Source: Myxococcales bacterium | Lineage (GTDB): Bacteria; Myxococcota; Myxococcia; Myxococcales; JAKAPL01 | NCBI GenBank assembly: GCA_021783235.1 | Contig: JAJXUD010000033.1 | Location: 1-47,395, forward strand | Length of the DNA: 47,395 nucleotides | Direction: 5' to 3' | In this document: piece after piece, positions 4,086 to 17,722 of the stretch | Numbering within the stretch: the stretch's first letter is position 1 | How the letters are laid out: each line of letters opens with the position of its first letter | Made by a program: the position numbers and the translations under genes | Notes under the pieces: generated by a model | What the model was told of the DNA's origin: nothing | What the model saw: the letters and a program-made list of their open reading frames with translations, nothing else | The model's database searches: none

Positions 4086-4100
4086 TCGGTGGGGGCGGGC

Positions 4101-5522
4101 ATGGAGAGACGCGTCTTCTTGGGGGGGCGCTTCGAGGCCGGCGGCTCGGTGCAGGAGGTGAGATCGCCGTTCGACGGGAGCGTCGTCTCACGGGTCCACC
4201 AGGCGGACGTCCGGCAGGCCGATCGAGCGCTCGCGCTCGCGGTCGAGCGGCGGGGCGAGCTCGGGCGCCTGAGCGCGGGTCGCAGGCGCGCGCTCTGCCA
4301 GGCGATCTCGGATGGCCTCGCGACCCGGCTCGAGGAGATCGCGCGGATCATCGCGCTCGAGGCCGGCAAGCCGATCGGGGCCGCGCGTACCGAGGTGAAG
4401 CGGGCCGTCGGGACGTTTGCCTTCGCGGCGGGCGAGGTCGCCTCCTACGGCGGGGAGCTCGTGCCGGTGGACTTCGACGAGGCCGCGCGGGGCTACCGGG
4501 GTTTCAGCCGGCTGGTCCCGAACGGTCCCGTCGTCGGGATCTCCCCCTTCAACTTTCCGCTGAACCTCTCCGCCCACAAGGTCGCGCCCGCGCTCGCCAT
4601 CGGCGCTCCCATCGTGCTCAAGCCGCCGCCGCAGGCGCCGTCGGCGGCGATCGTGCTCGCCGAGATCGCGCTCGCGGCCGGGGCGCCGGAGGGCGCGCTC
4701 TCGGTCTTGCCCTGTGAAAACGCGGTCGCCGAGCGGCTCGCGACCGATCCCCGCGTGCGGCTGCTCTCGTTCACCGGCAGCGCCCGGGTCGGCTGGAGCC
4801 TGCGCGGCAAGGTCGATCGGACGCGCGTCCTGCTGGAGCTCGGGGGCAACGCCGCGGTGGCGATCGCCGAGGATGCCGATCTCGACTGGGCGCTCGACCG
4901 GACGGCCCTGGCCGCCTTCGCCTACGCCGGGCAGGTCTGCATCTCGGCGCAGCGCGTCTACGCGCACCGATCGATCTTCGCGCAGGTCGTCCGCGGCCTG
5001 GTCGAGCGCGCCAGCCGTTGGCCGGCCGGGGATCCCCTGGACGAGGCCACCGTGGTCGGCCCGCTGATCGACGAGCGCTCGGCCGACCGGCTCCTCTCAT
5101 GGGTGGACGAGGCGCGGCGCCTCGGCGCGACCGTTGCCTGCGGCGGCGCTCGCCGCGGGGGGACCCTCGTGGATCCCATCGTCGTGACCGGCGCGCCCCC
5201 GAGCGCGAAGCTCGTCTGCGAGGAGGCGTTCGGTCCGGTGGTCGTCGTCGAGCCCTACGATGACTTCGACCAGGCGCTCGCGGCGATGAACGAGGGCGAG
5301 TACGGCCTGCAGGCGGCCCTCTTCACGCGCGATCTCGGCCGTGTTGGCCGGGCGATCGAGCGGCTCGAGGTGGGGGGGCTCGTCGTCAACGACGCCCCGA
5401 CCTTCCGATCGGACAACATGCCCTACGGCGGCCGAAAGGGCTCCGGCCTCGGGCGAGAGGGGCTTCGCTACGCCATGGAGGAGCTCTCGGAGCGGCAGAT
5501 GGTGGTCATCGGCAGCCGCTAG
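4101..5522 (+). CDS. NAD(P)-dependent aldehyde dehydrogenase
   Basis: The 473-residue protein covers the whole aldehyde dehydrogenase fold. The catalytic nucleophile is Cys280 in GQVCISAQRV and the general base is Glu246 in LLELGGNA. The substrate-side asparagine lies in ISPFNFPLN and the cofactor region in LSFTGSARVGWSL. The family oxidises aldehydes to carboxylates. The sequence resembles the branch containing lactaldehyde and non-phosphorylating glyceraldehyde-3-phosphate dehydrogenases, but the substrate cannot be fixed from sequence. ATG 4101 gives the usual N-terminus (MERRVFLGG); an in-frame GTG at 4089 is possible. It converges with the MshEN gene, with only 9 bases between the stops. 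Confidence 0.93.
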   Translation: MERRVFLGGRFEAGGSVQEVRSPFDGSVVSRVHQADVRQADRALALAVERRGELGRLSAGRRRALCQAISDGLATRLEEIARIIALEAGKPIGAARTEVKRAVGTFAFAAGEVASYGGELVPVDFDEAARGYRGFSRLVPNGPVVGISPFNFPLNLSAHKVAPALAIGAPIVLKPPPQAPSAAIVLAEIALAAGAPEGALSVLPCENAVAERLATDPRVRLLSFTGSARVGWSLRGKVDRTRVLLELGGNAAVAIAEDADLDWALDRTALAAFAYAGQVCISAQRVYAHRSIFAQVVRGLVERASRWPAGDPLDEATVVGPLIDERSADRLLSWVDEARRLGATVACGGARRGGTLVDPIVVTGAPPSAKLVCEEAFGPVVVVEPYDDFDQALAAMNEGEYGLQAALFTRDLGRVGRAIERLEVGGLVVNDAPTFRSDNMPYGGRKGSGLGREGLRYAMEELSERQMVVIGSR

Positions 5523-5531
5523 GCGAGCGCT

Positions 5532-6359
5532 TCAGTCCTCCTCGTCGAACTCGGCGAGGAACTCCTCCTTGGTGAGGAGCCCCTTGCGGGCCATCAGCCG
5601 GAGCAGCGCCCAGAAGCGGCGCTCGAGTTCGTCCATCCGCTCGGTCCTCGGGTCCTCCGCCCCGAAGAGAAACTCGAGGTCCTTCGCCATGCGGTCGTCC
5701 CGCGGCCGAGGCCGCTTGCGCTTCTCGCGCAGCCGCACCAGCTCGGCGAGCTCGGTCCGGCTCGTCACCTCCTCGGTGAGCGGGACCGGCTCCGCCTCGG
5801 GCAAGGGAGGGGGCCTGCGCGGCGCGTTGCCGGACTTGGTGTCGACGATCTCCTCGCCCCCGCCCGGCCGGACCAGGGTCATCCGGCCCGAGTCCGAGGA
5901 GGCGGCCGGATCCACTCCGCGGTGGTGGAAGTGGCGGGCGATGGCCCGGGCGATCTCGCTGCGGGGGGCGAGGAGCGGCTGGACCTTGCAGCCCGTCGTG
6001 AACTCGATCTGCTCGATGGCGGGCAAGTCGAGCGGATCGGCCATGGCGATCGTCAGGAGGCGGCGGCCGCTGCGCGTCTCCTCGAGCGCGACGGGGAAGA
6101 GGTCGTGCCGCTCGCAGAACGGCGCCCGCAGCAGCCGCAGCGCCGACCAGTCGCGCAGATCGACGGCGTCGACGACGCGAAGCCCCAGGGCTTCGCCCAG
6201 CGCGTGGCTGAGCACGCTCTCCGTGACGAAGCCCTTCGAGACGAGCACCGCGCCGATCCGTCCGCCGTTCTGCCGCTGGTACTGGAGCGCGGCGGAGAGC
6301 TGCTCGGGCTGGATGACGCGGCGCTCGAGGAGTATTTCGCCGATCCGCTTGCGCGCCAT
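5532..6359 (-). CDS. Stand-alone MshEN (GspE N-terminal) domain protein
   Basis: The 275-residue product begins with an MshEN/GSPII_E_N domain (about residues 1-150). It shows two repeats of the type RIGEILLERRVIQPEQLSAA and RIGAVLVSKGFVTESVLSHA. In MshE, such repeats of about 24 residues bind c-di-GMP. In the first repeat the usual Gly is Arg (LLERRVI), which may weaken binding. No ATPase domain follows. Instead there is a Pro-rich linker (about 170-195) and a basic then acidic helical tail ending EEFLAEFDEED. Myxobacteria carry several such ATPase-free MshEN proteins. A c-di-GMP response role is inferred. Confidence 0.8.
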   Translation of the reverse strand: MARKRIGEILLERRVIQPEQLSAALQYQRQNGGRIGAVLVSKGFVTESVLSHALGEALGLRVVDAVDLRDWSALRLLRAPFCERHDLFPVALEETRSGRRLLTIAMADPLDLPAIEQIEFTTGCKVQPLLAPRSEIARAIARHFHHRGVDPAASSDSGRMTLVRPGGGEEIVDTKSGNAPRRPPPLPEAEPVPLTEEVTSRTELAELVRLREKRKRPRPRDDRMAKDLEFLFGAEDPRTERMDELERRFWALLRLMARKGLLTKEEFLAEFDEED

Positions 6360-6424
6360 GCCGCCAGTCTAAGGGGCTGGCCGGCGCGCCCGCAAATTTC
6401 GCGCCCGACTGGCTGGCCGCTCGC

Positions 6425-6667
6425 CTACGGCTCGGGCGTCTTCGAGTCGTTCGGGCGCTCGGAGGGCTCGCGGACGTGGAGCTTGCCGTTCACCGGCAGG
6501 GCGTCGAGCTGGATGTTGATCGACTGATCGCGGTTGACCCAGGCGCTGCCGATCCGCTGCCAGAAGCTCTTGTCGGTGCCGGGCTTGTCGATGATGGTGT
6601 AGACGACGAGGCGCTTGGTGGGCGCCCGCGCCTGGGGGTTGAGCAGCAGGGGATCGCGCATGGCCAT
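6425..6667 (-). CDS. 80-residue conserved hypothetical protein
   Basis: The small acidic/basic mixed protein starts at ATG 6667, with GGAG 7 bases upstream. The core reads VVYTIIDKPGTDKSFWQRIG and continues SAWVNRDQSINIQLDALP, a compact beta-rich segment. I associate this with a small protein family in Myxococcota of unknown function. The last 15 residues are charged and Pro-rich. It lies between the MshEN gene and the DUF3467 gene on the same strand. There are no membrane segments or cysteines. Confidence 0.7.
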   Translation of the reverse strand: MAMRDPLLLNPQARAPTKRLVVYTIIDKPGTDKSFWQRIGSAWVNRDQSINIQLDALPVNGKLHVREPSERPNDSKTPEP

Positions 6668-6784
6668 GGCTTGTCTCCGAGTCGCCGGTCGTCCGGCGTG
6701 ATCGGAGGCACCGCAAGATGGGTGCCACGTCCAAGTGGCCGAAAAGTGGCCTTCGGGGCCGGGCGCACCCGGTCCGAAAACGCG

Positions 6785-7090
6785 CTACTGGGGGAGCGTT
6801 CCCGGCGGAAACGTCGGGACCTCGATGGTGCCGAAGCGCTGCTCGAAGCGGCGCACCTGCTCCTGCATGGCGAGGAGGAGCTGCTTCATGTGCTTCGGGC
6901 TCGTGATGATCCGAGCGCGCACCTTCGCCTTCGGCTGCTGCGGCTGGACGTAGATCATGTCGAGCGTGAACTCGGTCTCCGAGTGGTTGACGAGCGCCAT
7001 GTTCACGTAGCTGCCCTGGGCGATGTCGTCGTCGAGCTGGATCTGGAGCTGGAGCGGCTGCGGGGCGCTGGGCGGCGGCTGGACGGCCAT
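6785..7090 (-). CDS. DUF3467 family protein
   Basis: The 101-residue protein matches the DUF3467 pattern: QLDDDIAQGSYVNMALVNHS, then a beta strand TEFTLDMIYVQP, then a basic strand and an amphipathic C-terminal helix (SPKHMKQLLLAMQEQVRRFE). The family is small, soluble and functionally uncharacterised. ATG 7090 is preceded by AAGGA with good spacing. The dehydrogenase gene ends 20 bases upstream, so the two are probably co-transcribed from the promoter at 8263-8292. Confidence 0.85.
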   Translation of the reverse strand: MAVQPPPSAPQPLQLQIQLDDDIAQGSYVNMALVNHSETEFTLDMIYVQPQQPKAKVRARIITSPKHMKQLLLAMQEQVRRFEQRFGTIEVPTFPPGTLPQ

Positions 7091-7110
7091 GAAAGGTCCT
7101 TTCGGGGGCT

Positions 7111-8187
7111 CTAGGCGACGGCGGCGTTCGAAACGCCGCGGAGGCGGTCCTCGGCGAGGCTGTCCGCGACGGTCGCGGGATCCCGCCCCTCCGCCTTCGC
7201 GCGGGCGAAGATCTCGAGGAGCGTGTCGTGGATGCGCGAGGTCTCGGCGCGGGCGCGGGCCTCGTCGTAGCCCCGCCACTCCAGGGCGACGTTGATGAGC
7301 CCGCCGGCGTTGATGGCGTAGTCCGGCGCGTAGAGGATCCCGCGGTCGGCGAGCAGGGCGCCGTGGCGGAGCTCGGCGAGCTGGTTGTTCGCGGCTCCGG
7401 CGACGGCGCGGCAACGGAGCTTCGGAATCGTCTCGTCGTTCAGGATGGCGCCGAGCGCGTTCGGCGAGAAGACGTCGCACTCGAGGGCGTGGATCTCCGC
7501 GGGGCTCGCGACGGCGCAGCCGAGCTCGACCCGTACCCGCTCGGCCTTCGCGGCGTCGGCGTCCGCGATCGTCAGCTTCGCGCCGGCGCCGTGGAGAAGC
7601 TTCGCGAGGGCGTGGCCGACGTGGCCGACGCCGAGGAGCGCGACCCGGAGCCCCGCGAGGTCGCCGCGGCCGAGCGCGAAGCGGGCGACCGCCTCGATGC
7701 CGCGCAGGACGCCGAAGGCCGTCACCGGCGACGGATCGCCGCTGCCGCCCTTCGCGGGCGGCTGGCCCACCACGAAGCGGGTGCCCCGGCGGACCTCCTC
7801 CATGTCGTCGGGCGAGCTGCCCGAGTCCTCGGTCGTGATGTACCGGCCGCCCAGCGTGTCCACCGCCCGGCCGAAGGCCTGGAACAGCCGCGCCCGGTCG
7901 AAGGGGCCCGACGGGAGCAGGATGACGGCCTTGCCGCCGCCGTGAGGGACCCCGGCGAGCGCGGCCTTGTAGGTCATCCCGCGGGCCAATCGGAGGGCGT
8001 CGACGACCGCCGCCTCCTCCGTGGGGTAGGTCGAGAGGGCGCGCGTCCCCCCGAGGGCCGGGCCGAGCCGCGTGCTGTGGATGGCGACCACGGCGCGCAG
8101 CCCGCTCTCGCGGTCCGAAAGGAAGTGGACCCCCTCGTAGCCCCCCACTCGGCGGCCCGGCTCCGACATCGCGGCGAACAGTTCCAT
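7111..8187 (-). CDS. Glu/Leu/Phe/Val dehydrogenase, probably leucine dehydrogenase
   Basis: The 358-residue protein starts at ATG 8187, preceded by GAGG at about 8 bases. It contains the dimerisation/substrate domain with the catalytic lysine region MTYKAALAGVPHGGGKAVI. A Rossmann domain follows with LLGVGHVGHALAKLLHGAGA. The length and the sequence around GGGKAVI fit NAD-dependent leucine dehydrogenase (branched-chain amino acid to 2-oxo acid plus ammonia) better than the longer glutamate dehydrogenases. Phenylalanine dehydrogenase remains possible. In myxobacteria such an enzyme would feed branched-chain starter units for iso-fatty acids; that link is inference. It is transcribed from a strong promoter 69 bases upstream of the start. 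Confidence 0.9.
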   Translation of the reverse strand: MELFAAMSEPGRRVGGYEGVHFLSDRESGLRAVVAIHSTRLGPALGGTRALSTYPTEEAAVVDALRLARGMTYKAALAGVPHGGGKAVILLPSGPFDRARLFQAFGRAVDTLGGRYITTEDSGSSPDDMEEVRRGTRFVVGQPPAKGGSGDPSPVTAFGVLRGIEAVARFALGRGDLAGLRVALLGVGHVGHALAKLLHGAGAKLTIADADAAKAERVRVELGCAVASPAEIHALECDVFSPNALGAILNDETIPKLRCRAVAGAANNQLAELRHGALLADRGILYAPDYAINAGGLINVALEWRGYDEARARAETSRIHDTLLEIFARAKAEGRDPATVADSLAEDRLRGVSNAAVA

Positions 8188-8262
8188 GGCGAAGACCTCG
8201 AAGGTGAAGTCGCGGGACGATCCGTGAGAGCCCGTCAGCGGCAGGGGCCCCGGAGGCGGCGG

Positions 8263-8292
8263 AATATAGGAACCGCCCGCGAGCGCTGTCAA
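8263..8292 (-). promoter_or_regulatory. Strong sigma-70 promoter for the amino-acid dehydrogenase operon
   Basis: On the minus strand, TTGACA (8292-8287) is followed after 18 bases by TATATT (8268-8263). The predicted transcript starts near 8256, leaving about 69 bases of leader before ATG 8187. The rest of the 244-base gap up to hslO shows nothing else clear. Confidence 0.75.
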
Positions 8293-8431
8293 ACGGGCGT
8301 CCGGCCCCCCGCTCGATCGGCCCCGGGGGAAACTGACCACCAAGGCGAGTGCGACAAAGGCCGAGCGCGAGAGAGAAAGGGGGCAGCAGCAGGTCGTCGA
8401 GGCGGAGGAAGCGTGGGGCGCTCGGCAAGGA

Positions 8432-9346
8432 TCAGTCGCCCGGGTCCGAGTCGTCCGTGGCGGCGCGGATGAGCTCGAGGAGCTCCGGGCCGGCGACGTG
8501 GTACTTCGCGCCGCAGAACTGGCAGGCGAGCTTCGCCTCGCCGACCTCGGCGAAGAGCGAGCGCATCTCCTCGAGCCCCATGGCGAGGATCGCCCGCACG
8601 GCCCGGTCGCGCGAGCAGCTGCAGCGGAACTCGACGGGAACGTCCGCCAGGATCTCGACCCCGTCCCCCTCGAATCCCAGCCGCTCGAAGAGGGCCGTGG
8701 CCGTCTCGCCGGCGGCGAGGCCGCGCTCGAGCGCGCCTCCCCGCAACAGCTCGCGCGCGCGGGCCACCGCCGCCTCGTCTCCCCCGGGCAGTCGCTGGAT
8801 CAAGACCCCCGCCACCTGGCCGAGCGGCTCGCCCTCCTCGGGAAGCACCGAGAGCTGGACGGCGGTCTCGACCTGCTCGGAGCTCTGGAAGTAGCGCTCG
8901 AGGTCGCGCGAGAGCTCGCAGGCCTCGAGCTCCACCATGCCCCGGTAGATCTCTCCCCCGCCGAGGTCGCGCAGCACGCTGACGTAGCCCTTCCGGCCGA
9001 GGGCGCGCTCGGGAGCGAGAGGCTCTCCCGGGCCGCTCGTGAAGTAGACCTGCGGGTTCTTGATGTAGCCGCGGAAAGAGCCGTCGGTCCCCGCGTCGAT
9101 GAAGAGGCCGCCGGCGGGGCCGTCGCAGCCGATCTGAAGGTTGATGCGGGCGAGCTTCTTCTCGAGCGCCGCCGCGAGGAGCGCCCCGGCGGTCAGCCCC
9201 TGCGCGAGCAGCGCCGCCGAGGTCGGCGCGCAGCCGTGGGAGTCCCGAGCCTGCCGCGCGCCGAGGGTGGCGAACAGGGCGAACAGCCGGCTGCCCGTGG
9301 GCGCGAAGAGCCCCCGCACGAGGTGATCGCGAAGTGGGGCGGACAT
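8432..9346 (-). CDS. hslO: Hsp33 redox-regulated chaperone
   Basis: The 304-residue protein is a full-length Hsp33. The C-terminal redox switch has the zinc-binding cysteines Cys242 and Cys244 (CSC) and Cys275 and Cys278 (CQFC). The N-terminal chaperone core carries the IGCDGPAGGLFIDAG region. Hsp33 is a cytosolic holdase activated when oxidation releases zinc from these cysteines. Its start lies 9 bases after the stop of the HPr-kinase/S26 fusion, so it is probably the last gene of that operon. That position is unusual for hslO and may reflect simple read-through or a folding need linked to the upstream products. Confidence 0.93.
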   Translation of the reverse strand: MSAPLRDHLVRGLFAPTGSRLFALFATLGARQARDSHGCAPTSAALLAQGLTAGALLAAALEKKLARINLQIGCDGPAGGLFIDAGTDGSFRGYIKNPQVYFTSGPGEPLAPERALGRKGYVSVLRDLGGGEIYRGMVELEACELSRDLERYFQSSEQVETAVQLSVLPEEGEPLGQVAGVLIQRLPGGDEAAVARARELLRGGALERGLAAGETATALFERLGFEGDGVEILADVPVEFRCSCSRDRAVRAILAMGLEEMRSLFAEVGEAKLACQFCGAKYHVAGPELLELIRAATDDSDPGD

Positions 9347-9355
9347 GTCCTCATC

Positions 9356-10513
9356 TTATCCTTCGGAGGGAGCGCCGTCAGGATCCCGTGCAGAAGCAAG
9401 GGCTGCGATTCGACGAAGGAGACTGCGGCCGAGAGGCCCGGGTCGAAGCGGTGGCCCGAGCTCGACGAAGCCTCGGCCTGGGCGATAGACGGCCTCGACG
9501 AGACCGAGGATCTCGGAGCGCGGGCGGGGCGGGTCTTCGTTGCCGAGGTCTCCGGAGAGGACGACCCTCTCCGCGCCGGAAGGGCCGAGGACGCGGACGA
9601 TTCGGTGAGCGACGAGCTCGCCGCCGAGGCCGCGGGCGATCGCCACCGACTCGAGCCGCTCGGCGAGCCGCTGGTTGCCGAGCGGAAGGTGGAGGAGAAG
9701 ATCTCCTTCGCGGACAGCGGGCCACATGCAGGTGCCATGCGCCACTTGGCAGGTGAAGGGGCGCTTCCCGATCCGGTCGGAGGGCTTCCCGGGTACCAGC
9801 GCTCGTAGAAGAGGAAGCGGATCCTCCGTCAGCGAGAAGGAGAGCCTGAGACAGGGGATCGTCTTCGTGAGATCCTCGGCCAGCGCGAGCAGGGCCTCGG
9901 TGGCGCCGGGCCGAGCGGGCAGATGGGCTTGAGCGAGCAGGCCGCGGACCGCCTTGGCGCGGGAGACGGGCTCGAGCTTGGTCGGCCCTTTGTCCAAGAA
10001 GCAGACGGCCCCCAGTGGGAACGCGCCTTCGCTGGTTGGAAGAGGTGCGTCACTCCAGAAAGACGTGCCATGAATCTCGAAGGCGTCGCCGCGCCGGCGG
10101 AGCCCAATCGTCTCGTCGCTCAGCACGATGGCGCGAGGCGAACAGAGCCTCGATAGCGTGCTCTTGCCCCCACCGCTGGGAGCGAGACAGGCGATGCCCG
10201 CTCCCTCGACCAGGAGTCCCGCCCCATGAAACAGCGCACCATCGGGAAAGAGGCTGTGAGCCATCGCCGCACGCAGTACTGCGCCGGCTTCTGGGTAGGT
10301 TGACGACAGCGAGGCGGTTGCTTCGTCGGTAGTGGCTCGCCAGGAAAGCGCGGGCCCGCTTTCAAGGCGGACTCGAAGCAACGGCGACTTACCGGGAGAA
10401 CGCCTCTCCAGGGCACCGGTCGCGAGCCGACCCATCATGGCGATCAGGCTGGCATCTTCCGACTCGAAGCTGAGAGTCTCATGGAAGAAGCTCAGCTCGA
10501 TTGCTTCGGTCAT
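9356..10513 (-). CDS. HPr-kinase-like domain fused to S26-type peptidase-like domain
   Basis: The 385-residue protein joins two domains. Residues about 85-235 resemble HPr kinase: P-loop APSGGGKSTL (111-120), Walker-B-like VLSDETIGL, and HGTSFW. HprK-related kinases occur in RiPP clusters; PadeK phosphorylates the lasso peptide paeninodin at its C-terminal serine. Residues about 255-345 resemble ER/SipW-type S26 signal peptidases: TCMWPAVREGD (261-271), AHRIV with His303, and SGDLGNEDPP followed by EILG. The nucleophile Ser of the usual SMxP is Cys262 here. No membrane segment is visible, unlike true signal peptidases, so a cytoplasmic leader protease or a binding domain are both possible. 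Its ATG overlaps the stop of the 40-residue peptide gene by 4 bases. Confidence 0.8.
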   Translation of the reverse strand: MTEAIELSFFHETLSFESEDASLIAMMGRLATGALERRSPGKSPLLRVRLESGPALSWRATTDEATASLSSTYPEAGAVLRAAMAHSLFPDGALFHGAGLLVEGAGIACLAPSGGGKSTLSRLCSPRAIVLSDETIGLRRRGDAFEIHGTSFWSDAPLPTSEGAFPLGAVCFLDKGPTKLEPVSRAKAVRGLLAQAHLPARPGATEALLALAEDLTKTIPCLRLSFSLTEDPLPLLRALVPGKPSDRIGKRPFTCQVAHGTCMWPAVREGDLLLHLPLGNQRLAERLESVAIARGLGGELVAHRIVRVLGPSGAERVVLSGDLGNEDPPRPRSEILGLVEAVYRPGRGFVELGPPLRPGPLGRSLLRRIAALASARDPDGAPSEG

Positions 10514-10632
10514 TTGCTCGGAGGCGGCCGCTGGAAGCCCTGGTAGGGGCCGAGGGTCGTAAGGCAGAGCGGGGGAAGAAAGACACGCTCCGAACTCAGC
10601 TTCGGCGGTTGATATGGACGCTTTGTTTCCAA
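10510..10632 (-). CDS. Candidate RiPP precursor peptide, 40 residues
   Basis: A short frame with TTG start (10632-10630) is preceded by AAGGGG at 6 bases and ends with TGA at 10510, overlapping the HPr-kinase-like ATG as ATGA. The peptide starts ETKRPYQPPKLSSERVF after the initiator and ends GFQRPPPSK. Tyr7-xx-Pro10-x-Leu12 matches the YxxPxL leader signature that PqqD-like RRE domains recognise in lasso and related precursors. Cys23 and Thr25-Thr26 mark a possible leader/core boundary, and Ser39 is a possible kinase target. The core lacks Asp and Glu, and no lasso cyclase is nearby, so it is not a normal lasso peptide. The transaldolase gene in this window also uses TTG with a good ribosome-binding site, which makes this start credible. 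Confidence 0.62.
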   Translation of the reverse strand: METKRPYQPPKLSSERVFLPPLCLTTLGPYQGFQRPPPSK

Positions 10633-10644
10633 GCCAGACCCCTT

Positions 10645-13600
10645 TTAATAGTACAGGATTACATCGCCGGAAGTCGGTGACCCGATGGCGAGGTCAACGG
10701 GCGTTCCGCTGACGAAGACACCCGATTGCACGGCCAGCCCGAAGAACGACTGCCCGTTGTTGATGGAAGCAGAAGGTGCGTTGGGAAAGTAACCATTGCC
10801 GCTTCCTTGGTTTATATAAAGGTAGGCGCCGGAGTTGGTGTTGTTTGTTCCGACGAAGAGGTCCGGCTTGCCATCCTGGTTGACGTCCGGCGCGTTCACG
10901 TCCCAGCCGAAATTTCCGGACGAATTCGAGACTTGAACCACCGGCGTGGTGGTGACCGAACTGGCCGTCGTCTGATAGATATAGATTGTACCCGCTGATG
11001 CACCGGTGACGACGAGGTCCGGGGTGGCGTTCCCCGTTAAGGAGACTCCCCCGAACCCCGTCATTCCGTAGCCGTGGAAAGAGACACCGCAGGGGGGTGC
11101 GTTGGCTCCGCACGCCGGACCCGACCCGTTCGAAAGGGTGAATGAATCGGAGCTCGGTGAGATCGACCCGGTCGCGGCCTTCACCGCGGTCGCGCTGAAC
11201 CCGTACACGTTGTCGTTTCCGGTCGCCGGAATGACGAAGAATCCGTTGCCGACGTCGAAGGCCGCGAAGCGCATCCCCAGGTTGTCTCCGGTGGCGCCCG
11301 TAAAAGTCACGTTCGCCTGGGCGAAGGTCAAGCAGGAGGCCGCGGCGTTGCCCGTGCAGTTCGGGCTCACGGTGCTCCCGGCAACAGCGGTGGCGAGGGC
11401 GCTGCTGTAGAAGATGTAGCCAGCGCCGGGAGCGTAGGTGGTGATGGCGCCCGGAGCACCGATGAAGAGGTCCGGCTTCCCATCCCCATCGATGTCGCCA
11501 ATCGACTTGACCGAGAAGCCAAAGTAGCCATCCGTGGTCGGCCCCTGGATTTCGAGCGCGGGGACGGTTCCCAGTCCGGCTCCCGTGCTCAGGAAAAGGT
11601 CGACGCGTCCCTGATGCGAGTTCCAGGCGGGCGAGCCGACGGCGAGGCCGGCCGTCCCGCTGAAGTTACCGGCCACCGCATCCCAGCCGAACCAGTCCGC
11701 TGCGGTCTGGTTGGTCAACCGCACGGCGTTCGACATCGAGAAGGCGCTGGGGCTGGACGCTCCGGGAATCACGTAGACCGAGCCAATCCCCGAGAAATTC
11801 GGCGCCCCGATCGCGAGATCAGTGAGCCCGCTGTTGGTGAAAGAGCCAGTAAAGAGCCGGTAGCCGAAGTAGGTGCCAGAGGGACCCGACAGCGAAATCT
11901 GGTTCCAGATCTGATTCGGGTTTCCCGCGATCGTGTTGTCGTAGACCGTGAGCGCGGAGATCGGCTCCGAGCGGTTGCCGGCGGCATCCACCGAGCGGAG
12001 CGCGATGCCCCAGGCGTTGAAGGGCGTGAGGCCGCTCGTGCTGTAGGTGGTGGCGGTCCCGGGCGCCGTCCCGGCAACGGACGAGACGCCGGTGTCCTGA
12101 ACGACGCCGGTCGCAGCGAAGAACTGGCTGTCCGTGATGGTCGAGCTCCAGGCGCCGCTGGTCCAGCGCAGGTCGTAGGCGACGGCGCTGCCGTTGTCGT
12201 CCTGCGGCGCGCTCCAGCCGAGCTGTACCGTGGCCTTGTGCTCGTCGGTGACGGTGGCGGTGACGCTGGGCGGAGCGGGCGGGATGTCGTCGGTCTGAAC
12301 GGTCCAGCTCTGGATCGCCTGGTTGCCGGCGTTGTCGGTGATCGTGAGCGTCACCGTGCCGCTGGCGTGGGGCGGCAGGTTCACCGAGGCGAAGCCGACC
12401 GTCGCGGGATCCTGGGTGAGCGTCTGCGGCGCCGGGTCGGTCGTCGTCACGCCGCTGAAGGCGAGGTGAAGCGCCGCGCTCCCGAGGCTGCCGCTTCCCG
12501 ACACGGGTCCCAGATTGGCCGCCGTGGCCTGGAAGTTGGCGTTGGCGTACGGGTTGGTCGCGGCCGAGTAGCCGGTCAGGCTCGCGAGGTAAGAGACGCC
12601 CGCGACCGTCGTCCCGACCAGCGGGTTTCCGTTGGGGGCGACGACGTAGGCTGGGCTCGCGGGAGCCGCGGCCGAAAGCTGTGGGAGCGAGAGCTTCACC
12701 AGGTAGGGAACGGGCCCCAGCGTCGTGATGGCCCCGAGCGCGTCGGTGACCTGGCCGCTGAGCGTCCCCTGGGCTCCGTCGCTCAGCAGAAGCTGGAAGG
12801 TGGCGTGGCCGCTCGCATCCACCGAGGCCGTCGCGTTGACCGCGCTGCCGCCCTGCGGGGTGTTCGTGAGCTGAACCGAGGTCCCCTGCGGGCAGTCGGT
12901 CGCGAGGATGACCTGGCTGCTGCCGGTCTGCTGGTTGAAATAGAGCGGGTTGCCGCTGGGCTTGTAGAATGAGAGGCCGCAGCCCGGCGCCTGCACCGAG
13001 ATCTGGAGCCCGGCCGCGCTGCCGACGTTTCCGGCGAGATCCGCGACCGAAGCCGTGAGCGTGTGGACGCCGTCGTAGACCCCCGCCAACGCCACCTGCG
13101 CCGCGCCGTTCGAGACCGTCCCACTCGCGGCGGCGACGCCGTCGACGCTCACCGTCACGGTCTGTCCGTTGGCCACGCTGCTCTGAAGCCCCACCGTGAG
13201 GTCGTGGCTCGTGAAGGTCGGCGGGCTCGATCCCGCGGTCGGAGCGGGGGTCCAGCTCGAGGGGCTCGTGAAGGCGAGCGTCGGCGCCACCGTGTCGACG
13301 TCGATCGTCAGCCCGCCCGAGGGCACGCAGCTCTGGGGCGGGTTTCCGGCCGGGTCGGTGACGGTCGCGGTGAGGCTCTGCGAGCCCTGCCCCGCGGAGA
13401 CGGTGAACTGGGCTGCCGAGCTCGTCACCGCCTCGCTTCCCGCCGCGGTCCCGTTCAGCGACAGCGCCACCGTGCCCGGCACCGTCGCGCCCGCCACCAG
13501 CGCGTCGCCCGCGGTGACCGAGAGCGAGACCGGGAGGCTGATGGTTCCGGACTGCGCGCCGCCGTTCTCCTGCACGTTCCAGTAGCCGCCGGTCGGCGCC

Positions 13601-15519
13601 GTGAAGGCGCAGGACGGAAGGCTGGTCTTGACCACGAGCTGCGCATCCGCCGCCGGCGAGGTGAGCGGTGGGACGAGCTGCGGGGCGTAGTTCGAGTTGC
13701 CCCAGACGTCCGATACACGGGCCTCGAGATCGTGCGTGCCGTTCGAGAGAGTGATTGGCACCGAGGCCGTCGCCGCTGAGCCGCCCTGGACGATCGGCGC
13801 GGAGCCGACGGTCGCCGAGGCGGTCCGGTCGTAGATCGCGACCGACTGGGCCGAGCCGCCATCGGCGACGAAGCTGTCCGCGGGGTCGAGCGTCACGAGG
13901 GCCGTCGTCGCTGCATTTCCGTTCCCGCCGTCTGCCAGCGCGGCGGAATTGAGCCAGAGACCCCCATCGCCATCGACGAAATCGTTCGAGAACGCGACCG
14001 CTTGCACGGTGGGGCGAGTGGCGTGAACAGAGATCGACACTGGGGTCGCCGTGACGGTTCCGACCGAGTCCGTAACCTGAGCGGTCAACGTCTGATCGCC
14101 GTCCGAAAACGTGGCCATCAAGAGCGTGATGGAGCCCGCAGCGCCGACTGTGGCCATGGTGAAGGCACCCGTTCCGAACGGGCAGGCCGTCGAGCCGCTG
14201 GGAGGTGCGATCGTGCTGCAGAGGGTCACCTGCGAGCCGGTTTGCGCAGTCGTCGCCAGCTTCACCTGGAATTGAAGCGGGGCGGAGGGCTGGAAGTTGC
14301 TCTCCGAATTCAGGAGCTGTCCGGTGCTCGGTGAAATGATTGCAAGCGTTGGTGCTGAACTCGCCGTCACCGTGACCGCCGTGCTTTGAGCGAGATTCCC
14401 CGTGGCCGTGGTCGCTACGAAGGCGAGCGAGTCGCTGCCATTCGTGAGCGTGATCTCGACCGGATTGCTTGGGCCGCCGAATGTCCCGTCCGCGTTGACG
14501 TGGGGTGACCCCTTGGGCGTCGGGTAGGCGATCCCTTGGGCATCGACAATCTGGAAGCCCACAGGCATGTTGGCTGCGATCTGGGCGGTGAGGCCCGTGG
14601 TCGTGCCCGCGACGAAGATCTGCAACCCCGGGGTCGTCGGGTCCACGTCCTGGGCATCGCCGAAGGTCTGCCCATTCGCTGGCTGCGCGATCGTCGCGGT
14701 CGGCACCGTCGAATCCACGATGTAGCCGACCGGCTGCGAGACGCCGCTCGCGCCGCTCGAGGCGCTGCCGACGGAGGCCGTGACGGAGAGCCGCTGGGTC
14801 GGTTGGCTGAGCGCGGTGACCGGGGTGTCCGGCAGGGTCACGCCGTCGAAGACGGCCGTGCCGCCGGTGACGGTGGCGGTTCCGAGGCTGGTCGCGCCGG
14901 CGAGGAGCGTCGCGGGCAGGCCGTCGGCGCAGCCCGAGACGTCGGCGACGATCTTCGCCTGCATGCCGGGCTTCGTCGGGTCCTCGTCCTTCACCGTGGG
15001 CTTGCCGCCCACCGTGGCGCCGGTCTCGTTGAAGATCGTCCCGTCGGCGGGAGTCACGGTGATGGTGCAGCTCCCGGCCGGAAGCAGCACGCTGACGTGG
15101 GCGGTGGCCGAGGCGTGCCCCGCGCCGCCGGAGTCGGTGACGCTCGCCTGGAGGGCGTGGGCCGTCCCCGTGGGGGAGCCCGAGAGGCTCACGTTCGCGA
15201 TGGAGACCTTGCCTCCCTGGCCCACGGTTCCCGTGCCGCCGGGGTTGCCGTCGACGGTCAGGGTGACGGGCGAGCCCGGGGAGACGCCCTGCGCGGCGAG
15301 CTGGACCGTGATCTGGATGGTCCCCGCCGGCGCGTTCGGGTTCGTGTTGTCGCTCGAATGCAGCGTCGTCCCGTCGCTCGGTGCAACGAAGGCGATCGAG
15401 AGCTGCGTCGCCGGGCCGGTCGGCTTGCAGCTGCACGCCGTGCCAAAGATGCCGAGGCCCGCGGCCGCGAGCACGCCCAGCGCTCCATGGAAGAGTCGTC
15501 GATTCATTTGCCGGTTCAT
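10645..15519 (-). CDS. Giant lipoprotein with Ig-like, fibronectin III and FG-GAP repeats
   Basis: The 1624-residue protein starts at ATG 15519, with GGAG 7 bases upstream. A signal peptide ends in the lipobox FGTAC, followed by SCKPTGP. Residues about 35-1070 are a series of Ig-like beta domains, rich in Thr, Ser and Gly, with recurring ends such as ADLAGNVGS, TDPAGNPP and TDNAGNQ. A fibronectin III-like domain follows (about 1083-1190, LGWSAPQDDNGSAVAYDLRW). The last 420 residues are FG-GAP propeller repeats with calcium loops DIDGDGKPD (near 1343) and DVNQDGKPD (near 1546) and DLAIGAPNF-type blades. This points to a surface adhesin or scaffold on the outer membrane. It sits between the PqqD-like gene (32-base gap) and the peptide gene (12-base gap), which suggests a link to the peptide system. 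Confidence 0.85.
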   Translation of the reverse strand: MNRQMNRRLFHGALGVLAAAGLGIFGTACSCKPTGPATQLSIAFVAPSDGTTLHSSDNTNPNAPAGTIQITVQLAAQGVSPGSPVTLTVDGNPGGTGTVGQGGKVSIANVSLSGSPTGTAHALQASVTDSGGAGHASATAHVSVLLPAGSCTITVTPADGTIFNETGATVGGKPTVKDEDPTKPGMQAKIVADVSGCADGLPATLLAGATSLGTATVTGGTAVFDGVTLPDTPVTALSQPTQRLSVTASVGSASSGASGVSQPVGYIVDSTVPTATIAQPANGQTFGDAQDVDPTTPGLQIFVAGTTTGLTAQIAANMPVGFQIVDAQGIAYPTPKGSPHVNADGTFGGPSNPVEITLTNGSDSLAFVATTATGNLAQSTAVTVTASSAPTLAIISPSTGQLLNSESNFQPSAPLQFQVKLATTAQTGSQVTLCSTIAPPSGSTACPFGTGAFTMATVGAAGSITLLMATFSDGDQTLTAQVTDSVGTVTATPVSISVHATRPTVQAVAFSNDFVDGDGGLWLNSAALADGGNGNAATTALVTLDPADSFVADGGSAQSVAIYDRTASATVGSAPIVQGGSAATASVPITLSNGTHDLEARVSDVWGNSNYAPQLVPPLTSPAADAQLVVKTSLPSCAFTAPTGGYWNVQENGGAQSGTISLPVSLSVTAGDALVAGATVPGTVALSLNGTAAGSEAVTSSAAQFTVSAGQGSQSLTATVTDPAGNPPQSCVPSGGLTIDVDTVAPTLAFTSPSSWTPAPTAGSSPPTFTSHDLTVGLQSSVANGQTVTVSVDGVAAASGTVSNGAAQVALAGVYDGVHTLTASVADLAGNVGSAAGLQISVQAPGCGLSFYKPSGNPLYFNQQTGSSQVILATDCPQGTSVQLTNTPQGGSAVNATASVDASGHATFQLLLSDGAQGTLSGQVTDALGAITTLGPVPYLVKLSLPQLSAAAPASPAYVVAPNGNPLVGTTVAGVSYLASLTGYSAATNPYANANFQATAANLGPVSGSGSLGSAALHLAFSGVTTTDPAPQTLTQDPATVGFASVNLPPHASGTVTLTITDNAGNQAIQSWTVQTDDIPPAPPSVTATVTDEHKATVQLGWSAPQDDNGSAVAYDLRWTSGAWSSTITDSQFFAATGVVQDTGVSSVAGTAPGTATTYSTSGLTPFNAWGIALRSVDAAGNRSEPISALTVYDNTIAGNPNQIWNQISLSGPSGTYFGYRLFTGSFTNSGLTDLAIGAPNFSGIGSVYVIPGASSPSAFSMSNAVRLTNQTAADWFGWDAVAGNFSGTAGLAVGSPAWNSHQGRVDLFLSTGAGLGTVPALEIQGPTTDGYFGFSVKSIGDIDGDGKPDLFIGAPGAITTYAPGAGYIFYSSALATAVAGSTVSPNCTGNAAASCLTFAQANVTFTGATGDNLGMRFAAFDVGNGFFVIPATGNDNVYGFSATAVKAATGSISPSSDSFTLSNGSGPACGANAPPCGVSFHGYGMTGFGGVSLTGNATPDLVVTGASAGTIYIYQTTASSVTTTPVVQVSNSSGNFGWDVNAPDVNQDGKPDLFVGTNNTNSGAYLYINQGSGNGYFPNAPSASINNGQSFFGLAVQSGVFVSGTPVDLAIGSPTSGDVILYY

Positions 15520-15551
15520 CCTGGTCTCCAGATCCCCGGGCGGCGCACGTT

Positions 15552-15860
15552 TCAGCGCGTCGCCGCCTCGCTGCGAAGCTCGATGAGCCCCTTCTCCCGC
15601 AACAGCCCCATGAACGCCACCACGTCGGCCTCGGCCGTCGGCCGCTCGACCTCGTACGCTTCGACGATCCGCTCGACGATCTGACCCACGGAGCGCTGGC
15701 CATCCACGAGCGTCCAGATCTCGGTCGCGACGTCGTTCTCGAAGGTGTGGAGCGTCTGGTCGGCCTCGGTGATGGCGACGGCCACCCCTCCGAGAAGACG
15801 GGAGGCCACCCCGGCCTTGGGAGCCGGAAAAAGCGGCAAAAGCTCGACCATGCGGGGCAT
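15552..15860 (-). CDS. PqqD-family peptide chaperone (RRE)
   Basis: The 102-residue protein matches the PqqD fold. A short beta N-terminus precedes VAITEADQTLHTFENDVATE, then IWTLVDGQRSVGQIVERIVE and a C-terminal winged-helix part ending LLREKGLIEL. PqqD-like domains bind leader peptides (RiPP recognition element) and present the precursor to modifying enzymes. Family models that pair PqqD proteins with HprK-related kinases exist (the HPr-rel-A system). It is the first gene of the operon that contains the giant lipoprotein, the 40-residue peptide and the kinase/peptidase fusion. The start could be ATG 15860 or ATG 15851; neither has a strong ribosome-binding site. Confidence 0.82.
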   Translation of the reverse strand: MPRMVELLPLFPAPKAGVASRLLGGVAVAITEADQTLHTFENDVATEIWTLVDGQRSVGQIVERIVEAYEVERPTAEADVVAFMGLLREKGLIELRSEAATR

Positions 15861-15950: not shown

Positions 15951-16913
15951 CTACTTTTGGAGGGCGGCCTGCAGCTCGGGCAGCGCCTTGAACAGGTCGC
16001 CCACGAGGCCGTAGTCGGCCACCTGGAAGATCGGCGCCTCGGGATCCTTGTTGATGGCGACGATCACCTTGCTGTTCTTCATGCCGGCGAGATGCTGGAT
16101 GGCGCCCGAGATCCCGGCCGCGATGTAGAGCTCGGGGGCCACGGTCTTGCCGGTCTGGCCGACCTGGTAGTCGTTCGGGACCCAGCCGGCGTCGCAGGCG
16201 GCGCGACTCGCGCCCACGGCAGCGCCGAGCGCGTCGGCCAGGCTCTCGATCGGCTTGAAGTCGCCCTTCGTGCCGCGGCCGCCCGAGACGACGATCCGCG
16301 CCTCGGTCAGCTCGGGCCGCGCCGACTTCACCTGCTCGAGCGCGAGGAACTTCGTCTTGATCGCGGCGGCGTCGATCTGCGCGGCGAACGGCTGCACCGG
16401 CGCCGCGCCCGCGCCCTTCTCGGCCGTTCCGAACTCGGTCGGGCGGACCGTGAGCGCCTTCACCGGCGTCGCGATCTTCACCTCGGCGAGGACCGCGCCC
16501 GCCCACATCGGTCGCCGGAACGTGACGTCGGTCCCCTCTCCCGTGAAGGCGAGGACGTCGGTCGCGAGGCCGGCGCCGAGCCGGGCGGCGGCGCGCGGAA
16601 GCACGTCCTTGCCGACGGCCGTGGCGGCGGCGACGACGTAAGCCGCCTCGAGCTGCTTTGCGGCCTGGGAGATCACCTGCGCGTACGGCTCGGCGAGCGG
16701 GTGCTCGAGCAGCTCGTGCTCGGCGAGGTGGACCTGGTCGGGCCCGTAGGACGCGACCTCCGCGGCCGCGCCCTGAGCCCCCTTCCCGAGGACGAGCACG
16801 TGGAGCTTGCCGCCGCTCCGCTGGGCGAGCTGCCGCCCGGCCTTGACGGCGGAGAGCGTGGCCTTCTTGAGTGTTCCCCCGAGCTGCTCGGCGACGACGA
16901 GGACGTTGTTCAA
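15951..16913 (-). CDS. etfA: Electron transfer flavoprotein alpha subunit
   Basis: The 320-residue protein has the EtfA N-terminal domain ([20 protein letters not shown]) and the conserved C-terminal FAD domain. That domain includes [37 protein letters not shown] and [20 protein letters not shown]. With EtfB it forms the heterodimer that takes electrons from acyl-CoA dehydrogenases and passes them to ETF-ubiquinone oxidoreductase. The gene follows etfB on the same strand after 17 bases. About 90 bases separate its stop from the PqqD-like gene, which probably begins a new unit. Confidence 0.96.
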
Positions 16914-16930
16914 GGGGTCTCCTCTCCGGG

Positions 16931-17722
16931 TCAGATGACCTTGGCTTCGTTGTGCAGCTTGTCGACGAGGGTTGCGACGTCCGGCACCTTGACGCCCCCC
17001 TTGCGGGCGGGCGGGGCCGAAAAGCGGAGCGTCGTGACCTTCGGGGTCACATCGACGCCAAGTGCCGCGGGCGTCAGCTCCTTCACCTCTTTCTTCTTCG
17101 CCTTCATGATGTTCGGGAGCGAGGCGTAACGAGGGAGGTTCAGCCGCAGGTCGACCGTCACCACCGCCGGGAGCGCGAGCTCGAGGGTCTCGAGGCCGCC
17201 GTCCACTTCACGGACGACCTTGGCCTTCGCGCCCTCGATCTGGATGCCGGGGGCCTTGGCCTTCTCCTGCTCGGACTCGAGGCTCTCGTGCTTCGAGGCG
17301 AACGTCGCCTGCCCCCAATGGAGGTACTCGGCGAGGAGCTGGCCGGCCTGGTTCTGGTCGTCGTCGATGGCCTGCTTGCCCATGAGCACGAGGTCGGGCT
17401 TCTCCTGCTCGACGATCTTCTGCAGCAGCCGCGCGACTCCGTCCGAATCGAGCGGGCCGTCGTGCTTGACGAGGATGCCGCGGTCGGCCCCCATCGCGAG
17501 CGCCTGGCGGAGCTCGCTGGTCGCCTTGTCCGAGCCGAGGGTGATCGCCACCACCTCGCCCTGGTGCTTCGCCTGGAGCCGCAGCGCCTCCTCGACCGCG
17601 ATCTCGTCGAAGGGGTTCGGCTTGTAGTTCATCCCGTCGGTCACGATGCCGCTGCCGTCGGGCTTCACCTTGATCGCCTGGTAGGGGTCTTCGACGCGCT
17701 TGACGGTGACGAGGATCTTCAC
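16931..17722 (-). CDS. etfB: Electron transfer flavoprotein beta subunit
   Basis: The 263-residue protein starts MKILVTVKRVEDPYQAIKVK and carries the conserved NPFDEIAVEEALRL region near residue 40. It also has the DDDQNQAGQLLAEYLHW-type nucleotide-binding segment, seen here as IDDDQNQAGQLLAEYL. EtfB binds AMP and holds the FAD domain of EtfA. It is the first gene of the etfBA unit, with a well-formed promoter 43-71 bases upstream. The arrangement is the usual one for short-chain fatty-acid and branched-chain amino-acid oxidation. Confidence 0.96.
   Translation of the reverse strand: MKILVTVKRVEDPYQAIKVKPDGSGIVTDGMNYKPNPFDEIAVEEALRLQAKHQGEVVAITLGSDKATSELRQALAMGADRGILVKHDGPLDSDGVARLLQKIVEQEKPDLVLMGKQAIDDDQNQAGQLLAEYLHWGQATFASKHESLESEQEKAKAPGIQIEGAKAKVVREVDGGLETLELALPAVVTVDLRLNLPRYASLPNIMKAKKKEVKELTPAALGVDVTPKVTTLRFSAPPARKGGVKVPDVATLVDKLHNEAKVI

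Follow-up and report, generated by a model that had tools for sequence, protein, structure and literature searches.

A predicted phosphopeptide RiPP cassette linked to a giant integrin-like lipoprotein in Myxococcota

Organization of the locus

The window analyzed here is the whole 47,395-nt stretch of DNA from a Myxococcales genome. Within it, five minus-strand genes run from a PqqD-like gene to hslO. A previous sequence-only reading had listed these genes with gaps of 32, 12, -4 and 9 bases; all five were confirmed to the base and the gaps were reproduced. The first gene (15552-15860) encodes a 102-aa PqqD-like protein (Pfam PqqD, E 2.5e-16), predicted to be a discrete RiPP recognition element (RRE) that binds a YxxPxL leader. 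It is followed by the gene for a giant FG-GAP lipoprotein of 1624 aa (10645-15519), with a lipobox (FGTAC/SCK), Ig-like repeats, a fibronectin-like stretch and a C-terminal propeller, then by a putative 40-aa precursor peptide with a TTG start (METKRPYQPPKLSSERVFLPPLCLTTLGPYQGFQRPPPSK; 10510-10632) and by a 385-aa fusion protein (9356-10513). The fusion consists of an N-terminal HprK-like peptide kinase domain (9779-10513), assigned by structure modeling and conserved residues, and an S26 (Sec11/SipW-like) peptidase domain (9356-9736, GTCMWP...AHR...GD).

The last gene, hslO (8432-9346), encodes an ordinary Hsp33 (Pfam HSP33, E 1.9e-63). It had been counted within the operon system, but it is no neighbor of the cassette in the relatives examined; we ruled it out as a component and regard it as a bystander. 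The etfA and etfB genes (electron transfer flavoprotein, 15951-17722) upstream of the operon and an aldehyde dehydrogenase gene farther away (4089-5522) are housekeeping genes. No transporter or NTP transferase gene is present in the contiguous cassette, which is bordered by hslO and etfA/etfB. A 1294-aa frame across the lipoprotein gene (11819-15703) was discarded as a shadow frame. A defence system was also rejected, as PADLOC gave no match among the window proteins. Our literature searches for this cassette, as an HprK/PqqD RiPP system, a PqqD/FG-GAP system of Myxococcota or a PqqD/FG-GAP lipoprotein system, found nothing.

RRE and kinase

The nearest solved natural relative of the PqqD-like protein in the PDB is the lasso RRE TbiB1 (4e-5); other matches are 9x8z, a "PqqD family protein" (5e-4), and the lasso RRE 9x90 (5e-3). 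With the search size set to 10,000, the family profile of the cassette RREs recognizes BsfB1 at 4.8e-20, and that of the cassette kinases recognizes BsfK, a proven RiPP kinase, at 1.6e-20.

No Pfam family matched the fusion protein, and NCBIfam kinase models remained below their cut-offs. Because a PDB sequence search for an HprK-like kinase returned Walker A matches only, the kinase fold was tested by modeling. In the AF2 model of the fusion protein (pLDDT 83) both domains fold well, and Foldseek matched the kinase domain to PEPCK and HprK/P with a probability of 1.00. Conserved residues are H96, G-x-GK117-S/T (Walker A) and D133-E134; they correspond to the His, the Walker A motif and the acidic pair reported for BsfK, with D-E in place of D-D. 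As the modeled fold, the His, the Walker A motif and the acidic Mg site are all present, we assign the window kinase to the HprK/PEPCK superfamily.

Conservation of the cassette

The fusion protein was searched against 60 relative genomes, and the kinase profile was run on 147 genomes from the class and on 195 from the phylum, after which about 90 stretches were examined. The kinase-profile survey yielded 45 loci with an FG-GAP-bearing cassette (type I), spread over many genera and consisting of PqqD, the FG-GAP gene and a YxxP peptide, then kinase and S26; these loci are mutually related and do not represent 45 independent events. PqqD/RRE lies directly upstream of the FG-GAP gene in 41/45; the other four, in which no PqqD was seen, end at the edge of a contig or of the examined region, and in genome G052 PqqD is present just beyond the examined stretch. 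A short [YW]xxP peptide stands behind the FG-GAP gene in all 45 loci, an HprK-like kinase within 600 nt in 37 and an S26 peptidase gene in range in 41, while a radical SAM gene is found in seven. The RRE tree contains one clade of 31 plus several smaller clades. In two genomes of the same family as the window genome (G001 and G002), kinase and peptidase are separate and a radical SAM gene lies between them (HprK-rSAM-S26).

The sequence-only reading had named peptide-less loci, a lipoprotein placed elsewhere and an unconserved peptide frame as outcomes that would count against it; all three were looked for in the relatives, and none was found. It had also asked whether the five genes stay adjacent. 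RRE, lipoprotein, peptide and usually kinase and S26 do, hslO being the exception.

Precursor peptide

Judged from its sequence and context, the 40-aa frame is a real gene. A candidate ribosome site (AAGGGG, 10644-10639) lies 6 nt ahead of the TTG start, homologous peptides of 41-42 aa are encoded just before the kinase in G001 (MEKRPYEAPRLTSEKVFIPMLNAATSTLAGYGAFKRPPPKH) and G002, and the 4-base overlap of the peptide gene into the kinase gene is the same in the window and in G001. At random points in these loci, a frame with the motif is within range only 6% of the time, and peptides of close pairs have dN/dS values of 0.04-0.47, that is, they are under purifying selection. All 40 aligned peptides have Pro at Tyr+3 and Tyr or Trp at position 0; 38 have Val, Leu or Ile at position +5, and 82% have Ser or Thr at position +7. 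The predicted RRE-binding motif of the window peptide, YQPPKL, is located in the leader (10597-10614); leader motifs of the YxxP type have been found experimentally to bind RREs (PMC10368454, PMC13381572). The C-terminal cores of type I peptides are variable, differ in length and often contain two or more Cys residues. The core in the window, GPYQGFQRPPPSK, resembles the cores YGAFKRPPPKH and YGPYRRPPRR of the radical-SAM subtype.

A register test on a thinned set of 36 peptides found Ser or Thr at Tyr+18 to Tyr+20 in 31, compared with 11.6 expected (sd 2.7, maximum 22, 5000 tail shuffles). Two proven phosphosites share this register. BsfA of Bradymonas sediminis is phosphorylated on Ser3 (Tyr+19) by the HprK-like BsfK, helped by the RRE BsfB1 (PMC10368454). 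LppA, the precursor of the linear polyphosphorylated peptides (LPPs) of Paenibacillus alginolyticus (lppAKBSDN, Nat Commun 2026), has the motif YxxPxVLxHQxIxFETxxS, is cut after T and is phosphorylated on Ser3 (PMC13381572), which the motif and the cleavage site place at Tyr+18. The window peptide has Thr at both Tyr+18 and Tyr+19 (Thr25 and Thr26, 10555-10560), and these are the predicted phosphoacceptors.

S26 peptidase domain and radical SAM enzymes

The S26 family profile matches the Sec11 signal peptidase (7e-9). Relatives encode S26 by separate genes. In the window S26 domain, a Cys occupies the position of the Ser nucleophile (9461-9736), and His and Asp are retained. The nucleophile is Cys in five genomes (the window, G001 and G002 at loci L021 and L022, and those of loci L086 and L089); most others have Ser. 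All of these Ser-to-Cys genomes lie inside or adjoin the radical-SAM-bearing branch of type I, and the four besides the window retain unfused S26 genes. A Cys nucleophile could indicate an inactive or altered protease; since it recurs across five genomes, the sequences make an active Cys-His-Asp protease likelier than a dead one. No transmembrane segment was found in the fusion, which would be a soluble chain. With kinase and protease fused on it, the protease is predicted to be located where ATP is and to remove the leader in the cytoplasm, and the fusion fits a coupling of phosphorylation with cleavage. Other long S26 frames of the family, such as L046 10785-11771, show an apparent C-terminal fusion to a GNAT-like acetyltransferase, with weak Pfam matches (0.002-0.008).

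There is no radical SAM gene in the window operon, nor does the 97%-complete window genome encode an ortholog of the enzyme seen in the relatives; the best match of a radical SAM search was the enzyme of a second cluster on contig C107 (see below) and the others were short and weak. From these comparisons, the simplest account is that the radical SAM gene was lost and its neighbors were fused in the window lineage. In G001, G002 and some other relatives, the peptide is probably a substrate of the radical SAM enzyme as well. The enzyme of the G001 cassette (P0009, L019 1999-3021) has the YydG peptide epimerase as its best NCBIfam match (5.6e-16, far below cut-off), and an epimerase-like reaction is thus possible.

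Without the radical SAM enzyme that its nearest relatives have, the window pathway could be simplified or decaying. In the stronger form of this explanation, the window copy would be decaying or repurposed, with its radical SAM lost, its kinase and protease fused by deletion and its protease inactivated by the Ser-to-Cys change, as the HprK-rSAM-S26 order in G001/G002 against the fused HprK-S26 and the missing ortholog might indicate. However, every frame is open, the peptide core is retained, four genomes with separate S26 genes have the same Cys, and the model of the fusion folds well in both domains; we therefore consider decay improbable.

Comparison with known systems

By analogy of its working parts, the window system is nearest to the LPP family. 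Both have a discrete RRE, an HprK kinase and a YxxPx[LV] leader, and neither has a lasso cyclase. The peptidases belong to one SipW/Sec11-like fold family, but of the Ser-His-Asp residues of LPP the window domain keeps His and Asp and has Cys for Ser, which most relatives retain. In the LPP pathway, a SipW-like Ser-His-Asp peptidase is offered the leader by the RRE and cuts the unphosphorylated precursor poorly (PMC13381572). LPPs were stated by their authors to be restricted to Bacillota, with a role that is unknown (PMC13381572). The LPP core set includes an NTP transferase and an MsbA-like transporter but no lipoprotein, whereas the reverse holds for the window cassette. The cassette peptides combine YxxPx[LVI] with Ser/Thr near +18, but where the LPP motif continues with HQxIxFET they have SE[KR] and a hydrophobic run instead. 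The window further differs in its fused kinase and peptidase, its Cys nucleophile, the radical SAM enzymes of its relatives and the obligate giant FG-GAP lipoprotein. We did not file it as an LPP member, because neither the motif beyond YxxPxV nor the NTP transferase and transporter core genes were found. What would be new relative to LPP is the occurrence in Myxococcota, the obligate giant lipoprotein with its integrin-alpha-type propeller, the cassette without NTP transferase or transporter, and the radical SAM enzyme in some relatives; new in the window itself are the HprK-S26 fusion with a Cys nucleophile and the lack of a radical SAM.

The bsf cluster resembles the window in its YxxPxL leader, RRE-assisted HprK-like kinase, Tyr+19 register and adjoining FG-GAP gene, but it has a lasso cyclase, a B2 leader peptidase, an ABC transporter and an NTase, all four of which are missing from the window operon. 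Lasso peptides in general also share the YxxPxL leader and the discrete RRE. The earlier statement that no standard lasso pathway explains the locus held, as B2, cyclase and transporter are all absent from the operon. We ruled out a lasso pathway, given that the operon has no B2 leader peptidase and no asparagine-synthase-like cyclase. No unassigned gene that could be a cyclase remains between PqqD and hslO, the upstream flank consists of the etf genes, and in the whole window genome B2 gave just a weak match (2.1e-4) to a 508-aa frame on another contig.

Two other systems pair a PqqD-like with an HprK-like protein. Radical SAM proteins belong to one of them, the SynChlorMet (Scm) cassette, in contrast to the window operon, and we know of no FG-GAP partner in its description. 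Matches to ScmC (7.7e-4 in the window, 1e-6 in G001) and ScmD (2.8e-5) are weak, and all lie far below the curated cut-offs (for the window proteins, 18.9 vs 125 bits for ScmC and 24.2 vs 100 bits for ScmD). The other is the HPr-rel-A system (HprK_rel_A, PqqD_rel_X). Matches to HprK_rel_A come only from the kinases of G001 and L023 and are weak (4e-4 and 4e-5) and below cut-off; the window kinase does not match this model and reaches 12.1 vs 200 bits for HprK_rel_B.

Giant lipoprotein and proposed pathway

The lipoprotein has Pfam matches to FG-GAP (7e-14) and Big_13 (1.8e-7). Its C-terminal beta-propeller (10645-11904) matches integrin alpha-5 by profile (5e-31), and the best Foldseek matches of its AF2 model (pLDDT 81.6) are integrin alpha-5/alpha-V (E 6e-15). 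Profile and model thus agree on the FG-GAP propeller fold of the integrin alpha subunit, although the window protein is a bacterial lipoprotein with an Ig-like stalk and no beta subunit. The propeller of integrins helps bind short peptides. In the 60 relative genomes, all 13 full-length members of the FG-GAP family are inside the cassette; the remaining matches are either short and partial or belong to copies of the cassette that lie at the end of a contig. The link between peptide and lipoprotein is strong by genetics, as read from the genomes compared, and it suggests that the two work together; the invariant linkage and the integrin-like propeller point to peptide binding or display. Of the earlier proposal that the lipoprotein is a partner, carrier or target, the association itself stands, being invariant in 45 loci, while the choice among these roles is drawn from linkage.

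The peptide could also be an independent antimicrobial or signal made by a RiPP pathway, with the lipoprotein as its receptor, an immunity protein or a mere operon neighbor. Next to the Bradymonas bsf cluster is an FG-GAP protein to which the authors of that study ascribed no part in the pathway (PMC10368454), locus L121 (G051:C10, 5795-10382) likewise has an FG-GAP gene some 2 kb ahead of HprK, PqqD and a genuine lasso B2 gene, and LPP distributions are patchy and transfer-like (PMC13381572). In nearly every type I locus, however, the FG-GAP gene is placed inside the operon with RRE on one side and peptide on the other, its full-length family was not found outside the cassette in the 60 genomes, and the cassette has no transporter. 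In addition, three genomes (G075, G074 and G137; L055, L060 and L059) have the kinase relocated, so that its adjacency is lost, yet the RRE-FG-GAP-peptide unit is intact. On this evidence, an independent peptide appears unlikely.

We favor, with a probability of roughly 60%, a linear phosphopeptide RiPP pathway of the LPP working type, whose product would serve or be displayed with the lipoprotein. The sequence-only reading had likewise inferred a phosphorylated, cleaved short peptide, and the component genes, the recognition of BsfK and BsfB1 by the family profiles and the LPP and Bsf precedents bear this out as an inference. At the level of sequence, the production of a phosphorylated, trimmed short peptide by an RRE-dependent RiPP route is well supported. 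The PqqD-like RRE would bind the YQPPKL leader, the HprK-like domain would phosphorylate a Ser/Thr about 19 residues past the Tyr (Thr25/Thr26 in the window), and the soluble Sec11/SipW-like domain, with Cys-His-Asp for Ser-His-Asp, would cut off the leader in the cytoplasm; we infer these three steps from homology, from motif conservation and from relatives whose activity is proven. The core might then be exported by a route encoded elsewhere and act with, or be bound by, the integrin-alpha-like propeller of the outer-surface lipoprotein, a step that invariant gene linkage and fold suggest. More tentatively, the cassette may represent a RiPP class of its own. Its phosphorylated peptide, radical-SAM-modified in some lineages, would be the dedicated ligand or prosthetic peptide of the giant integrin-like lipoprotein. 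If so, the lipoprotein would be a phylum-wide surface receptor or adhesin that is switched on by a modified peptide encoded alongside it.

The toolkit of RRE, HprK and Sec11/SipW-like peptidase is now seen outside Bacillota, where it is tied to a single giant integrin-like lipoprotein; this is a strong hint that such phosphopeptides may function on the cell surface together with a defined partner. The FG-GAP gene beside bsf, set aside by its authors as uninvolved, becomes a testable part. Deletion and mass-spectrometry work would be feasible if the relatives, as we believe, include cultured myxobacteria.

Related arrangements

Two further arrangements share RRE, YxxP peptide and HprK with type I. 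Type II has the order S26, RRE, small lipoprotein, secreted 1029-aa protein with a PQQ_2/BamB-like propeller, peptide and kinase; in types I and II alike, the large secreted partner has a beta-propeller at its end. Type II loci (L072 4948-10338, L069-L071, L074, L076-L078, L106, L111 and L112) occur in large-genome genera, the small lipoprotein has 178 aa, and the peptide cores, such as ILWEQPFVALAQISQCNIPGESECIP, are far more conserved than those of type I. Type III comprises RRE, radical SAM/SPASM, peptide, kinase and mostly S26, without FG-GAP.

These arrangements bear on two other views of the peptide. Instead of being a RiPP, it might assist the lipoprotein as a small partner, chaperone or plug, and the RRE, kinase and protease would regulate lipoprotein assembly; both the invariant lipoprotein-peptide adjacency and the variable cores would suit such a role. 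This seems improbable, though, given that the leader holds the canonical RRE motif and the phosphosite register of proven RiPP precursors, and that type III RRE, HprK and S26 proteins of the same phylum serve YxxP peptides with a radical SAM and without FG-GAP. Alternatively, the peptide could give rise to a small prosthetic group or cofactor that the propeller protein uses, in the manner of PQQ and mycofactocin. The RRE, the radical SAM in relatives and the propeller partners (FG-GAP here, the 1029-aa protein in type II) are in line with this idea, but radical SAM is missing from 38/45 type I cassettes, the kinase chemistry is unlike that of PQQ, and cores vary in length, often with two or more Cys, so that it seems very improbable. 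The phosphopeptide pathway remains our preferred reading.

The window genome contains a second RRE cluster on contig C107 (L034, 5367-11523), which is type III-like. It begins with a TlpA-like thioredoxin and PqqD, continues with a radical SAM/SPASM gene (6332-7420), a 62-aa YxxP peptide (7417-7605) and an HprK-like kinase (7602-8414), and ends in a 1022-aa C25 (gingipain-family) peptidase. A frame at L034 6304-7420 was rejected as a shadow, the true gene being the radical SAM in another frame. Type III loci also include L081, L083-L085, L088, L092, L097 and L116, with peptide cores of the EA[LM].[GS][IM]CK type that are often GS-terminated, and one relative (L080) was detected in a Chloroflexota genome.
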